From: Candidatus Eiseniibacteriota bacterium
GTDB lineage: Bacteria; Orphanbacterota; Orphanbacteria; Orphanbacterales; Orphanbacteraceae
NCBI GenBank assembly: GCA_024276995.1
Contig: JAJRWB010000068.1
Coordinates: forward strand, 1-6,817
DNA length: 6,817 bases
Reading direction: 5' to 3'
Shown here: piece after piece, positions 1,157-5,747 of the stretch
Position numbering within the stretch: the stretch's first letter is position 1
How the letters are laid out: every line of letters begins with the position of its first letter
The notes under the pieces: model-generated
Database searches by the model: none
Told to the model about the DNA's origin: nothing
The model's input: only the letters and a program-made list of their open reading frames with translations
Translations under genes and position numbers: made by a program

Positions 1157-1165
1157 TGTGGATAA
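1157..1165 (-). promoter_or_regulatory. DnaA box, perfect consensus
   Basis: TGTGGATAA is the exact complement of TTATCCACA. A degenerate neighbour, GGTGGATAT (two mismatches), follows at 1168-1176 in the same orientation. Confidence 0.85.
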
Positions 1166-1209
1166 GTGGTGGATATCTCTGTCGAAAAACGCGCCGCGTG
1201 GCCTGTTTT

Positions 1210-1218
1210 TGTGGATAA
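1210..1218 (-). promoter_or_regulatory. DnaA box, perfect consensus
   Basis: This is a second exact TGTGGATAA, preceded by a T-rich run. It lies 22 bases (about two helical turns) from the next box at 1232, so both would face the same side of the DNA. Confidence 0.87.
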
Positions 1219-1231
1219 CTTCGGGGTTGCC

Positions 1232-1240
1232 GGTGGATAA
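1232..1240 (-). promoter_or_regulatory. DnaA box (one mismatch)
   Basis: GGTGGATAA differs from the consensus only in the first base. It lies some 30 bases ahead of the dnaA ribosome-binding site and is followed by a T6 run. Binding here would be well placed to repress dnaA expression as well as to serve the origin. Confidence 0.75.
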
Positions 1241-1282: not shown

Positions 1283-2668
1283 ATGTCAACGTCTCCCTCC
1301 GCTCTGTGGTCCGCCACGCTGAATAAGATCCAGAATCATGTTTCCGACCAGACCTACGAGGCGTGGTTTGAACCTACAAAATGTGTAGCCAGCTCCGCCG
1401 AAGGGGTTCGTATCCAGGTACCGAACCAGTTTTTCGCCGACTGGCTCAAGGAGAATTACTTCACCCTGATCAGCAGCTGTCTCGGCGAGGTGCTTCGCCG
1501 CGAACCCGCCTCGGTCGACTTCGCCATCTCCTCGAACAAGGCGGAGGACGCCACGACCTCTCCCCGCCACGCGACCGGCACGGGTGGGAGAAACGGTTCG
1601 CCCTCCCGGGCGGCGAACGGCGACGTGGACAAGGCGCGGAACGCGGCGATCGCCCAGCTCAACAGCCGTTACACGTTTTCATCCTTCGTCGTGGGGCGCT
1701 CGAACCAGTTCGCCCGGGCGGCCGCCCTCGCCGTGGCGGAAAAACCGGCCCGGATCTACAACCCCCTCTTCATCTATGGCGGCGTCGGCCTCGGCAAGAC
1801 GCACCTGATCCAGGCGATCGGCCATAAGGTGATCGAAAACGCGCCCTCCTCGCGGATCCATTATGTCTCCGCCGAGAGCTTTATGAATGAAATGATCTAT
1901 TCGATTCAAAAAGGGGAAACCCTACTCTTCAAAGAGAAGTACAGAACCGTCGATCTTCTCCTCATCGACGACATCCAGTTTCTCGCCGGAAAAGAGAGCA
2001 CCCAGGAGGAGTTCTTCCACACCTTCAACGCCCTTTACAACGCGAAGAAGCAGATCGTCCTTACGAGCGATCGCCCGCCGAAGGAGATCGCCAACCTCGA
2101 GGAGAGACTCATATCCCGTTTCGAATGGGGCCTCGTGGCGGACATCGGCTCGCCCGACCTCGAAACGAGAATCGCCATCCTACGGCGGAAGGCCGAGACC
2201 GAGGGTCTCACCATCCCGCAGGATGTGCTTCTGTTCATCGCGAAATCGATCCGATCGAATATCCGGCAGCTCGAAGGCTCGCTCGTGCGCCTCCTCGCCT
2301 TCTCCTCCCTCACCGGCCAGGATCTGAACGTCGATCTCGCCCGGGACGTACTGAAGGACTACTTCTCCCACAGGACGAACAAGGCAACGATCCGCGACAT
2401 TCTGAAGGTGTGCGCCGCGCATTTCGATATCACCGAGGAGGCGATCCTGTCGAAGCGGAGAACGGCGGAGATCGCCTTGGCGCGGCAGGTGGCGATGCAC
2501 TTCGCCCGGGAGATGGGCGGCCTCTCGCTGAGCCAGATCGGGGCGCGCTTCGGTGGGCGGGACCACACCACGGTGCTGCACGCCTGCCAGAAAATACAGC
2601 GGCTCTGTGCGGCGGACGACCAGTTCCAGAACACTCTCGACCGCCTGGCCGACGAGATCACGAGCTGA
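1283..2668 (+). CDS. dnaA: Chromosomal replication initiator protein DnaA
   Basis: DnaA is the AAA+ ATPase that binds DnaA boxes, oligomerises and opens the origin. The 461-residue product has all four domains. The N-terminal domain (about 1-85, with the WF near 28-29) mediates self-association and helicase contacts, followed by a low-complexity linker (about 90-125). The AAA+ domain carries Walker A GGVGLGKTHL at 166-175, Walker B LLLIDD at 225-230 and the likely arginine finger R279 in LISRFEWGL. The DNA-binding domain holds the DnaA signature GGRDHTTVLHA at 424-434. I choose the ATG at 1283 because GGGGAT sits seven bases upstream and the protein then begins like other DnaA proteins. An upstream in-frame TTG (1256) would add nine unrelated residues. 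The region of the initiator-specific motif, which engages single strands and DnaA-trios, is intact (about 190-220). DnaA boxes flank the gene on both sides. Confidence 0.98.
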   Translation: MSTSPSALWSATLNKIQNHVSDQTYEAWFEPTKCVASSAEGVRIQVPNQFFADWLKENYFTLISSCLGEVLRREPASVDFAISSNKAEDATTSPRHATGTGGRNGSPSRAANGDVDKARNAAIAQLNSRYTFSSFVVGRSNQFARAAALAVAEKPARIYNPLFIYGGVGLGKTHLIQAIGHKVIENAPSSRIHYVSAESFMNEMIYSIQKGETLLFKEKYRTVDLLLIDDIQFLAGKESTQEEFFHTFNALYNAKKQIVLTSDRPPKEIANLEERLISRFEWGLVADIGSPDLETRIAILRRKAETEGLTIPQDVLLFIAKSIRSNIRQLEGSLVRLLAFSSLTGQDLNVDLARDVLKDYFSHRTNKATIRDILKVCAAHFDITEEAILSKRRTAEIALARQVAMHFAREMGGLSLSQIGARFGGRDHTTVLHACQKIQRLCAADDQFQNTLDRLADEITS

Positions 2669-2913: not shown

Positions 2914-2930
2914 TCATCCACATTTCCACG
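2914..2930 (+). promoter_or_regulatory. Tandem DnaA boxes next to the unwinding site
   Basis: TCATCCACA (2914-2922, one mismatch) is immediately followed by ATTTCCACG (2922-2930, three mismatches, sharing one base), both in plus orientation. They stand directly before the GC-rich spacer and the CTA tract. That matches the pair of boxes from which the DnaA filament extends onto trios in B. subtilis. Confidence 0.7.
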
Positions 2931-2934
2931 GGCT

Positions 2935-2949
2935 CTACTACGACTACTA
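2935..2949 (-). repeat. DnaA-trio tract
   Basis: The plus strand reads CTA CTA CGA CTA CTA, so the complementary strand carries five consecutive 3'-GAT-type trinucleotides with one G-C change in the middle unit. In the B. subtilis system DnaA assembles from adjacent boxes onto such trios to separate the strands. Here the tract lies four bases after the box at 2922-2930 and abuts the T8/TATAAA element. Confidence 0.8.
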
Positions 2950-2962
2950 TTTTTTTTATAAA
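2950..2962. other. AT-rich DNA unwinding element
   Basis: T8 followed by ATAAA gives 13 consecutive A/T bases, conspicuous in GC-rich DNA and directly after the DnaA-trio tract. This is the expected first melting site. On its right, CTTCT-GAA-AGAAG (2964-2976) can form a five-base-pair hairpin when single-stranded. Confidence 0.75.
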
Positions 2963-2983
2963 CCTTCTGAAAGAAGAAGAGCG

Positions 2984-2992
2984 TGTGGACGA
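2984..2992 (-). promoter_or_regulatory. DnaA box on the far side of the unwinding element
   Basis: TGTGGACGA keeps the core with two mismatches. It is the only box-like site right of the AT-rich element and is oriented opposite to the pair at 2914-2930. Confidence 0.45.
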
Positions 2993-3230: not shown

Positions 3231-4346
3231 TTGGAATTCAAAACGCAGAAGGGCGATCTTTCGAGAACCCTCGACCTGGTGCTCAATATCGTTCCGCCGA
3301 AGACCACGCTTCCCGTGCTGTCGAACCTCCTTCTCGATGTGAAGACCGATTCGATCTGTGTGGTCTCCACCGATCTCGATACCACGGTCACGACCACACT
3401 GAAAGGAGAGGTGATCCGCGAGGGGATGATCACGCTGCCGGCGCGACGGTTGAATGAAATCATCCATCACGCGGGGGACGACGAGATTCATTTCAGCCTC
3501 GAGGACGAAACGGTCGTGCGTATCGTGTGCGGAAGCACCGATTGTCGTCTTCCCGGGATTCTCGAAGAGGAGTTCCCGAAGATTCCGTCGATCCAGACGA
3601 AGGAGAGACTGCAGCTTCCCGCGGGGATGCTCAGGCGGATGGTGGCGAAGACGGCGTTCGCCGTGTCGAAAGATGAGACGCGACCGGCGCTGAACGGCAT
3701 CTTCTGGCGCATCGAGCCCAGGCGGATGGAAATGGTGTGTACCGACGGCTACCGTCTGGCGAGAATGGAAAGGACCGGCGAGTTCCCGGTGAAAGGGAAG
3801 AAGGAGTTCCTCGTATCGCCCAAGGCGCTCAACCAGATGGCCCACCTGGCGGAAGACTCCGACGAGATGGTCGATATCCGGGTGGACAACAACTACCTCG
3901 TATTCTCCTGCGCGGGGACGGTCGTCTATTCGCGACTGCTCGAAGGGCCGTTTCCACGGTACGAGCAGGTGATTCCGAAGGACAACAGGAAGGAACTGAT
4001 CACCCGCAGGGACCGGCTCATGCAGTCGTGCCGCCGGGTGGCTATTTTCAGCGACAGTCTGACCCACCAGGTACAGCTGTCGGTAAAGAAGAACGAACTG
4101 GTGTTGAAGTCGAACACGCCCGACGTGGGAGAGGCGACCGACCGCGTGGAAGCGGAGTACTCCGAGGATGAGATGGATATCGGATACAACGCCACCTATC
4201 TCGCCGACATTCTGAAGCACATCGACGGTGATATGGCGAAGTTCCGCCTCGACTCGCCGATCAAGGCGGGAATCATCGAGCCGGTCGAGCAGGAGAAGGA
4301 CGAGAACTATTTCTGTCTCCTCATGCCGCTGCGCCTTGCGGAGTGA
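3231..4346 (+). CDS. dnaN: DNA polymerase III beta subunit (sliding clamp)
   Basis: The product is the ring-shaped processivity clamp that tethers the replicative polymerase, and many repair proteins, to DNA. From the TTG at 3231 the protein has 371 residues, the usual family length, made of three repeated clamp domains (about 1-120, 121-245 and 246-371). Recognisable stretches are TLPVLSNLLL (26-35), DETRPALNGIFW (138-149), TDGYRLA (161-167), LEGPFPRYEQVIP (227-239) and the C-terminal MPLRL (365-369). I choose TTG 3231 because GGGGGAG lies six bases upstream and the N-terminus MEFKTQKGDL aligns with other clamps. In-frame ATG 3216 and TTG 3210 would add five to seven residues and lack a good ribosome-binding site, but remain possible. 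The gene has its own promoter and its stop overlaps the recF start, so translation is coupled. Confidence 0.97.
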   Translation: MEFKTQKGDLSRTLDLVLNIVPPKTTLPVLSNLLLDVKTDSICVVSTDLDTTVTTTLKGEVIREGMITLPARRLNEIIHHAGDDEIHFSLEDETVVRIVCGSTDCRLPGILEEEFPKIPSIQTKERLQLPAGMLRRMVAKTAFAVSKDETRPALNGIFWRIEPRRMEMVCTDGYRLARMERTGEFPVKGKKEFLVSPKALNQMAHLAEDSDEMVDIRVDNNYLVFSCAGTVVYSRLLEGPFPRYEQVIPKDNRKELITRRDRLMQSCRRVAIFSDSLTHQVQLSVKKNELVLKSNTPDVGEATDRVEAEYSEDEMDIGYNATYLADILKHIDGDMAKFRLDSPIKAGIIEPVEQEKDENYFCLLMPLRLAE

Positions 4347-5446
4347 TTCTGGAAAGCCTTTCGCTGCACGATTTCCGCAACTTTCAGGATGTGGAGATCG
4401 AGGCCAGCCGGGGTGGAGCGGTGATCTGGGGTCCGAACGGCCGGGGGAAAACGAATCTCCTCGAGGCGATCTTCATTCTCGGCGCCACCCGTTCTCACAG
4501 GACCCGGAAGGATGTCGAACTCATCCGGTTCGGATGTCCCTTCTTCCGTGTGAGCGGTCGCTTCCGGAAGGAGGACGCCGGGCGGACGACGATCTCCCTT
4601 TCCTACGAGCGCAACGGAAGGAAGAGGGGAAGGATCGACGGGAAGGAGAAGGAGAAGCTCTCGTCGATGGTGGGACATTGCGGCGTGATTCTCGTCTCTC
4701 CCGACGACGTGGAAATCACCGGGGGAGAACCGGAAAAGCGCCGGCAGTTTCTCGACCTGATGCTCTGCACGGTAGACGGCGTCTACCTTCGCGCGCTCAG
4801 GGAGTACAACAGGATTCTCAGGCAGAGGGGGAGCATCCTGAGGGATTTTCGGGAGAGAGACCGGGGGGGGCTTCTCGATCCGTGGGATCGACAGCTTGCC
4901 GAAGGGGCCGCTTCGATCACCTCCGCGCGCTCCGCCGCGGTAAGCCGCCTCGGACCTCTCGCGGAGGAGTCGTACGGCAAACTGGGAGGAGGCGAAATAT
5001 TCACGGTGGCGTACCGGCCGGGTGCGGGGGAAGGCCCCGAGTGGACGAGCGAACAGGTCTACGATCGGATCGTTGCGGCGAGGGAGGAGGATCTCCGTAC
5101 GAGACGCACCTCGATCGGTCCACACCGGGACGACCTTCTCTTCCGGCTCGACGACCGGCCGATCCGGAATTTCGGGTCCCGGGGACAGCATCGCACGGCG
5201 GTGCTCGCCCTGAAGCTGGCGGCGGTGGAACTGATGAAGGAGCGGCTCGGCGACGATCCGATCGTTCTGCTCGACGATGTGTTCACCGAACTCGATGCCG
5301 GCAGGGCGAGGAGACTCGCCGATCATCTGCCGGGGGCGGGCCAGGTGTTCGCCACCGGCACCGGCAGGGCGGACCTGGCCGAGTATTTTCCCGGCGCGAC
5401 CGCGTTTTCGGTGAACGAAGAAGGGGGCGTCGTTCGTGAGATCTGA
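4343..5446 (+). CDS. recF: DNA replication and repair protein RecF
   Basis: RecF is an SMC-like ATPase that acts with RecO and RecR to load RecA at single-strand gaps. The 367-residue protein begins MILESLSLHDFRNF, typical of the family. It shows Walker A GPNGRGKT (30-37), a SPDDVEI-GGEPEKRRQFLD block (119-138), IGPHRDDL (258-265), the ABC-type signature region GSRGQHRT (278-285) and Walker B IVLLDDVFTELD (307-318). The GTG start overlaps the dnaN stop (GTGA) and has no strong ribosome-binding site of its own, so coupling to dnaN is likely. A run of eight G residues (4863-4870) encodes part of RDRGGLLD and is a plausible slippage site, though the frame is intact here. The 3' end overlaps the next gene by 11 bases. 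Confidence 0.97.
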   Translation: MILESLSLHDFRNFQDVEIEASRGGAVIWGPNGRGKTNLLEAIFILGATRSHRTRKDVELIRFGCPFFRVSGRFRKEDAGRTTISLSYERNGRKRGRIDGKEKEKLSSMVGHCGVILVSPDDVEITGGEPEKRRQFLDLMLCTVDGVYLRALREYNRILRQRGSILRDFRERDRGGLLDPWDRQLAEGAASITSARSAAVSRLGPLAEESYGKLGGGEIFTVAYRPGAGEGPEWTSEQVYDRIVAAREEDLRTRRTSIGPHRDDLLFRLDDRPIRNFGSRGQHRTAVLALKLAAVELMKERLGDDPIVLLDDVFTELDAGRARRLADHLPGAGQVFATGTGRADLAEYFPGATAFSVNEEGGVVREI

Positions 5447-5747
5447 TTGGCGGTCCGCTGGCGACCTGATCGCGACGGTGCTCGATCGGGCGGGAATCAC
5501 CGAAGGTTTCCGGCGGCATTCGGCCCTTTCCCACTGGGATGAGGTGGTGGGTGAGAAGATCGGCCGGAAGGCGCGGCCGAGGGAATTAAGGGGGAAAACG
5601 CTGATCGTCGACGTGGAAAGCAGCGCCTGGGTTCACGAACTGACCTATTTGAAAAGCGAGATTCTGTGCGACCTGAACCGGAAAGTCGGGGGGGACGCGA
5701 TCGACAGGATCGTATTCCTGGTAGGGGGATCGGTGGAGGAAAGATGA
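5436..5747 (+). CDS. dciA: DUF721 / DciA-like protein, probable replicative helicase loader
   Basis: This 103-residue protein has the DUF721 (DciA) features: an N-terminal helix ([12 protein letters not shown]), then [20 protein letters not shown] (about 31-50), a hydrophobic strand [14 protein letters not shown] (56-69) and [11 protein letters not shown] (71-81). Family members are small KH-like, nucleic-acid-binding proteins. DciA promotes loading of the DnaB helicase in bacteria that lack DnaC or DnaI. Some DUF721 proteins are uncharacterised, so the loader role here rests on family and location rather than on catalytic residues. The GTG start at 5436 has AAGGGGG eight bases upstream and overlaps recF by 11 bases. 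The stop overlaps the gyrB ATG. Position between recF and gyrB is common for this family in several phyla. The protein is short, with no long disordered C-terminal tail. Confidence 0.87.

Follow-up and report, generated by a model that had tools for sequence, protein, structure and literature searches.

In the basal unwinding system (BUS) of Bacillus subtilis, DnaA bound to its boxes extends onto the trio strand and captures two bases per trio between protomers, and the adjoining duplex opens. The system consists of DnaA-boxes 6 and 7, a G+C-rich spacer and DnaA-trios (PMC6669920, PMC8287927, PMC10721633), and its published search rule asks for three consecutive trios with a middle A no more than 16 nt away from a good box (PMC8287927). 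In this bacterium a middle C works both in vitro and in vivo and is better than G or T for opening and growth (PMC10721633), and about 40 unpaired bases have been measured at oriC (PMC13326638). How a second replicative helicase gets to the complementary strand in the correct geometry is described as unresolved outside Firmicutes (PMC10201434).

The locus described here resembles the B. subtilis BUS in order, polarity, 8-bp box spacing and 12-nt gap, in its location between dnaA and dnaN, and in the trio-binding residues of DnaA. It differs in that trio 3 has a middle C instead of a middle A, its boxes are weaker, an inverted box and opposite-strand trios face the forward array, and DciA is present where DnaD is absent. 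The DnaD recognition element (DRE) of B. subtilis is a proposed route to the second helicase opposite the trio strand (PMC10201434), as this locus may be, but no DnaD homologue was detected here and DnaA sites on the opposite strand would serve instead. Two box sets of opposite orientation are also found in the left and right DnaA oligomerisation regions of Escherichia coli oriC (PMC13220808, PMC10316083), where both sets lie on one side of the DUE, whereas the sets in our locus flank the DUE at a fixed distance. The bipartite oriC1/oriC2 origin of Helicobacter pylori likewise places a box cluster and a trio-bearing unwinding site on opposite sides of dnaA, with no DnaD expected; an inverted half is not described there (PMC8235120), and our locus has one. 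Among papers accessible without subscription, our literature search returned no description of an inverted BUS partner.

Predicted forward opening site between dnaA and dnaN

The window (the whole stretch of DNA analysed, 6,817 nucleotides) is one entire contig of a 3.76-Mb draft genome (G000; 81 contigs, 96% complete), in which no SSU rRNA match was found. It carries rnpA and rpmH, both on the minus strand (rpmH identified by eye), together with dnaA, dnaN, recF, dciA (DUF721) and gyrB. The gap between dnaA and dnaN is 562 bp long and contains the BUS. The features relevant to initiation are as follows.

1157-1240, minus strand: DnaA-box cluster upstream of dnaA with five boxes (1157, 1168, 1180, 1210, 1232), two of them perfect TTATCCACA (box scan)
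1283-2668, plus strand: dnaA, initiator (TIGR00362, 560 bits)
2914-2922, plus strand: DnaA box 1, TCATCCACA, one mismatch to TTATCCACA (read directly; position kept in all seven genomes of the phylum)
2922-2930, plus strand: DnaA box 2, ATTTCCACG, three mismatches (CCAC cores of boxes 1 and 2 are 8 bp apart)
2931-2934, plus strand: G+C-rich spacer GGCT (read directly)
2935-2949, plus strand: DnaA-trios CTA-CTA-CGA-CTA-CTA on the box strand (read directly; trio chemistry from PMC10721633)
2950-2962, no strand assigned: A/T run T8ATAAA (TTTTTTTTATAAA, 13 A/T), the least stable duplex in the window
3231-4346, plus strand: dnaN (TIGR00663, 260 bits)
5436-5747, plus strand: dciA (DUF721; PF05258, E 9e-22)

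A preliminary description of this DNA had proposed two boxes, a spacer, trios and an A/T run at 2914-2962, and the letters, read directly, show exactly that layout; the likeness it had claimed to the B. subtilis trio system in order, polarity and position extends to the 8-bp box spacing, which is also present in Bacillota loci (e.g., TTATCCACAAATCCACAGG), and to the 12-nt gap. The two boxes face the same way in tandem with one and three mismatches, where BUS membership allows at most two in the better box and four in the other, and the better box is separated from the trios by 12 nt (10-13 nt for membership) with a G+C-rich spacer. The site also has the position expected at oriC beside a weak duplex, lying in the dnaA-dnaN gap with the least stable duplex and the GC-skew minimum. 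The complementary strand of 2935-2949, 3'-GAT-GAT-GCT-GAT-GAT-5', is the predicted DnaA target.

To score BUS sites, box weights and five trios were combined with a gap of 10-13 nt. The site at 2914-2962 scored 20.3, which was reached by none of 3000 dinucleotide shuffles of the dnaA-dnaN gap scored on both strands (mean 8.5, maximum 18.0), and the next independent BUS-like site anywhere in the window scored 14.2. The pattern CCACA-N12-CTNCTNCNNCTN has a single occurrence in the 3.76-Mb genome, at this BUS, and was also found at dnaA in five of six relatives; of two extra matches, one, in G001, was unrelated and the other was a second copy of the BUS on another contig of G003. In G003 this region lies at the ends of two contigs, C100 and C83 (L137, L139), with a small indel difference, and the duplicate is probably due to variation between strains or to a break in the assembly at the purine tract, which resembles a repeat.

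The least stable duplexes in the window were 2948-2962 at 15 bp, 2933-2962 at 30 bp and 2933-2982 at 50 bp. The GC-skew minimum that the preliminary description had expected here was found close by, as cumulative skew in the window is minimal at 2745, 190 bp to the left, and in G002 (62-kb contig) the minimum falls inside the element; in G001 and G004 the minima are flat and 4.8 and 15.5 kb distant. We also considered whether the chromosome opens instead at 907-935 in the rpmH-dnaA gap, a site that the preliminary description had named as a competing place of melting. The stretch at 908-937 is the second least stable of 30 bp and a strong reverse box, TTTTCCACA, is present at 917-925, but trios are absent there, the BUS scan places no site there, and the best BUS lies downstream of dnaA in all seven genomes of the phylum. 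Opening at 907-935 is highly improbable, and the region was rejected as the main opening site for being only the second least stable stretch and having no BUS-like site. No trios were found at the upstream box cluster at 1157-1240, which completes a bipartite oriC and probably also serves dnaA autoregulation.

Initiator, probable helicase loader and conservation of the forward site

In alignment with B. subtilis DnaA (residues numbered by counting along the known B. subtilis sequence), the window DnaA is identical at E183, N187, I190, I193, K222, E223, E228 and R264, and carries R202K and N196G among the trio-contact residues. Apart from these two substitutions it has the trio-binding residues and the arginine finger that BUS membership calls for. 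No TIGR01446 match to DnaD was found in G000 (96% complete), while the B. subtilis positive control matched; the DnaD/DRE pathway presupposes a genome that encodes DnaD, and none is detectable here. The dciA product is likely the helicase loader of G000. Across 50 genomes with a BUS, DnaD was found in two and DciA in 44, and G000 is a genome with DciA present and DnaD not detected.

Conservation was assessed in seven genomes of the window's phylum (seven species of a single family, their DnaA proteins sharing 65-77% identity with that of the window) using an ungapped alignment anchored on the first trio. Pairwise identity was 0.70 over the core from -21 to +12 versus 0.33 and 0.31 in the flanks. 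The distance from box 1 to the first trio was exactly 12 nt in all seven genomes and likewise in 25 of the 31 BUS sites of a separate 100-locus test set, and the same BUS architecture with a 12-nt gap is present behind dnaA in Bacillota loci and many other phyla. The preliminary description had proposed that trio units, spacer length and A/T run would be conserved while the flanks drift; trios and the 12-nt gap are indeed kept in seven of seven genomes with diverged flanks, but the A/T run is not conserved, being absent in G003 and G006, where the trios pass straight into GAAGAG or AAAGAG.

In G001 and G005 (L010, L136) the BUS lies directly behind dnaA although the next gene is arsenate-reductase-like (by eye) and not dnaN.

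Conservation, the DnaA trio-contact residues and GC skew, taken together, support a forward BUS at oriC. We consider it highly probable that 2914-2962 is the BUS of the chromosome's oriC and its forward opening site, and very likely that it is a further member of the known BUS type with one middle-C trio. Such a site predicts where the strands first open and not the base at which synthesis starts, so that the single-base prediction of the replication start offered in the preliminary description goes too far.

Natural trios with a middle C

Four of the five units at 2935-2949 are CTA, and the remaining unit, trio 3, carries a natural middle C (CGA); uninterrupted trio arrays are found in relatives such as G005. 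Because of this third unit, the window BUS fails the strict rule of three middle-A trios, and it passes once a middle C is permitted. Using middle-base counts taken from fetched dnaA loci, we found that 248 of the 266 internal trios of the surveyed BUS sites have T on the box strand. Ten of the 18 exceptions have G on the box strand (C on the trio strand), though locally G is the least common base (binomial p=6e-6), and with related loci removed the proportion is nine of 16 (p=1.6e-5). A pattern search of 386 genomes gave too few matches to use for this question. In natural origins, then, the exchange in use is the one that the trio chemistry permits. Such CGA and CGG units with a middle C speak for the amine-recognition model of trio binding, and, as the strict published rule misses the window origin, they show how BUS prediction could be extended.

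CGA or CGG units within otherwise canonical CTA arrays were seen at L027, L032, L080, L106, L113 and L182.

An inverted half facing the forward site

The preliminary description overlooked an inverted half at 2968-2992, which we ourselves noticed post hoc in the window.

2968-2979, minus strand: opposite-strand trios, CTT-CTT-CTT-TCA on the minus strand (read directly)
2984-2992, minus strand: inverted DnaA box, TCGTCCACA on the minus strand, at +49 from the first trio base

From 2992 to 2968 the minus strand reads TCGTCCACA-CGCT-CTTCTTCTTTCA; in this order come a DnaA box, a 4-nt spacer rich in G+C, and CTT trios, all oriented towards the forward BUS. The forward and inverted trio arrays start 45 bp apart and enclose 45 bp, near the ~40 unpaired bases of B. 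subtilis oriC (PMC13326638), and forward box 2 and the inverted box are placed symmetrically about the middle. The inverted box has the same +49 offset in G001 and G005, is weak and at +43 in G002, and is absent in G003, G004 and G006 (G003 by reading), which have a CTT-type tract without it. Inverted box and inverted trios are 4, 6, 9 or 12 nt apart, whereas the forward gap is fixed, and the window's own opposite-strand 12-mer is individually non-significant (p=0.15).

This inverted repeat could in principle be a transcription terminator, a hairpin or a dnaN leader and not an origin feature, as it is located 3' of dnaA with a T run of the plus strand close to its end. Against this, the element remains behind dnaA in G001 and G005 where dnaN is not the next gene, and DnaD-type lineages show no signal (below). 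The arms are also unpaired in the window's phylum because CTA-type trios on the forward side face CTT-type trios on the inverted side; the terminator or hairpin reading was rejected for these non-complementary arms and is barely conceivable.

Opposite-strand trios and reverse boxes across lineages

Opposite-strand trios were compared with a control consisting of the same DNA read backwards, which has identical composition; scores, windows and lengths for the inverted half were chosen during the analysis, and much of the signal is post hoc. In an exploratory non-Bacillota set, opposite-strand trios versus reversed control were 17:3 for 9-mers and 13:9 for 12-mers (not significant), and in a new 100-locus set they were 24:3 for 12-mers (p=7e-5). 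With one vote each, 44 DnaD-lacking families gave 32:8 (Wilcoxon p=4.7e-6), and 25% of DnaD-lacking families were individually below 0.05 versus 2% for the reversed control. There was no such signal in 37 DnaD-type lineages (13:17 versus control). Group membership followed phylum for the named Bacillota (DnaD-type); the other named loci and the unsearched genomes were counted as DnaD-lacking by assignment. From 29 further loci used as a small hold-out came nine weak BUS sites, with two wins, four losses and no +49 box, and there the inverted signal was not repeated; the pooled sign test including the hold-out gave 34:12 (p=8e-4). The mean positional profile of opposite-strand trios showed no signal, because the frame is averaged out.

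Among 59 families lacking DnaD, reverse boxes are concentrated +47 to +52 nt from the start of the trios, with eight families in that range, where ~0.57 per 6-nt bin would be expected from the rate elsewhere. These are the window's family, those of two further phyla, and L027, L065, L149, L168 and L019. Families f1, f67 and f70, like loci L027 and L065, were already known when the spacings were counted; taken alone, the three that were found blind reach only p=0.02. Reverse boxes at +47 to +52 are absent from all 38 DnaD-type lineages. In the G075 phylum 11 of 17 genomes have, at +49 to +51, a reverse box of variable sequence (TTCTCCACA, TTGTTCACA, TTTTCCACA), and no such box was found at +120 to +180 in any of the 17. 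In the G072 phylum it is present at +47 to +50 in four of five genomes, and two of these four boxes have the TCCCCG form that is also seen in forward boxes there. The nearest phyla may share the inverted layout by descent.

Forward and inverted boxes in the G072 phylum (L259-L263) are often TTTTCCCCG/TTATCCCCG, and the box sequences suggest that DnaA of this lineage may have a shifted box preference.

These surveys bear on whether the BUS is one-sided, with the reverse box as one of several low-affinity boxes in the gap and the GAAGAAG tract as a purine-rich, A/T-rich flank without a role of its own. Further weak boxes at 2761, 2783, 2812, 2840 and 2853, the missing reverse box in three of seven phylum genomes, the variable inner box-trio gap and the negative hold-out are consistent with a one-sided site, while the recurrence of the +47 to +52 spacing above its expected rate and the opposite-strand trio excess over a composition-matched control, with none in DnaD-type lineages, argue against it. 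We regard a one-sided BUS as a serious possibility, though somewhat short of an even chance. In an E. coli-like layout, by comparison, the inverted box would be part of a second DnaA subcomplex, and this subcomplex would bring in the second helicase via protein contacts (DnaA domain I) and not via single-strand trios of its own. The left and right DnaA subcomplexes of E. coli are oppositely oriented and both take part in helicase loading (PMC13220808, PMC10316083), and the distance between the facing boxes varies less than the register of box and trios. This layout is unlikely for the window, as the E. coli arrays occupy one side of the DUE and the window boxes flank it, opposite-strand trios are enriched, and no TTATT-type motif was found by eye in 2931-2992. 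A two-sided layout, considered as sequence anatomy, is well supported in several DnaD-lacking lineages and is not universal; that the inverted half acts as a second DnaA seat or anchor is a tentative proposal, with somewhat less than an even chance.

A proposed model of two-sided opening and its implications

For the mechanism, we infer binding by DnaA, strand melting and what the inverted half does, and take anatomy, conservation, uniqueness, duplex weakness, DnaA residues, DciA and the lack of a detectable DnaD as obtained directly. DnaA on boxes 1 and 2 would extend as an ATP filament onto the minus strand of 2935-2949 and capture two bases per trio, whereupon the weak A/T duplex alongside would open. 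Less certain than this forward step, a second DnaA anchor at 2984-2992 may guide a filament onto the plus strand at 2968-2979. Each strand would then carry a DnaA filament, the end of which would receive helicase with DciA. With a filament or at least an anchor on both strands, DciA-assisted helicase could therefore be placed on both.

In many DnaD-lacking bacteria, two sets of DnaA-boxes and trios ~45 bp apart may face each other in this way, and two filaments may open the origin symmetrically, each marking one strand for the helicase, a generalization that we offer with some reserve. The inverted half might show how the second helicase is placed, since it recurs in several phyla without DnaD. 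If true, the two-sided BUS would be the equivalent, so far missing, of the DnaD recognition element in Bacillus, and an inverted box at a fixed distance with trios on the opposite strand would provide a concrete, testable answer to how the second helicase is placed where DnaD is lacking.
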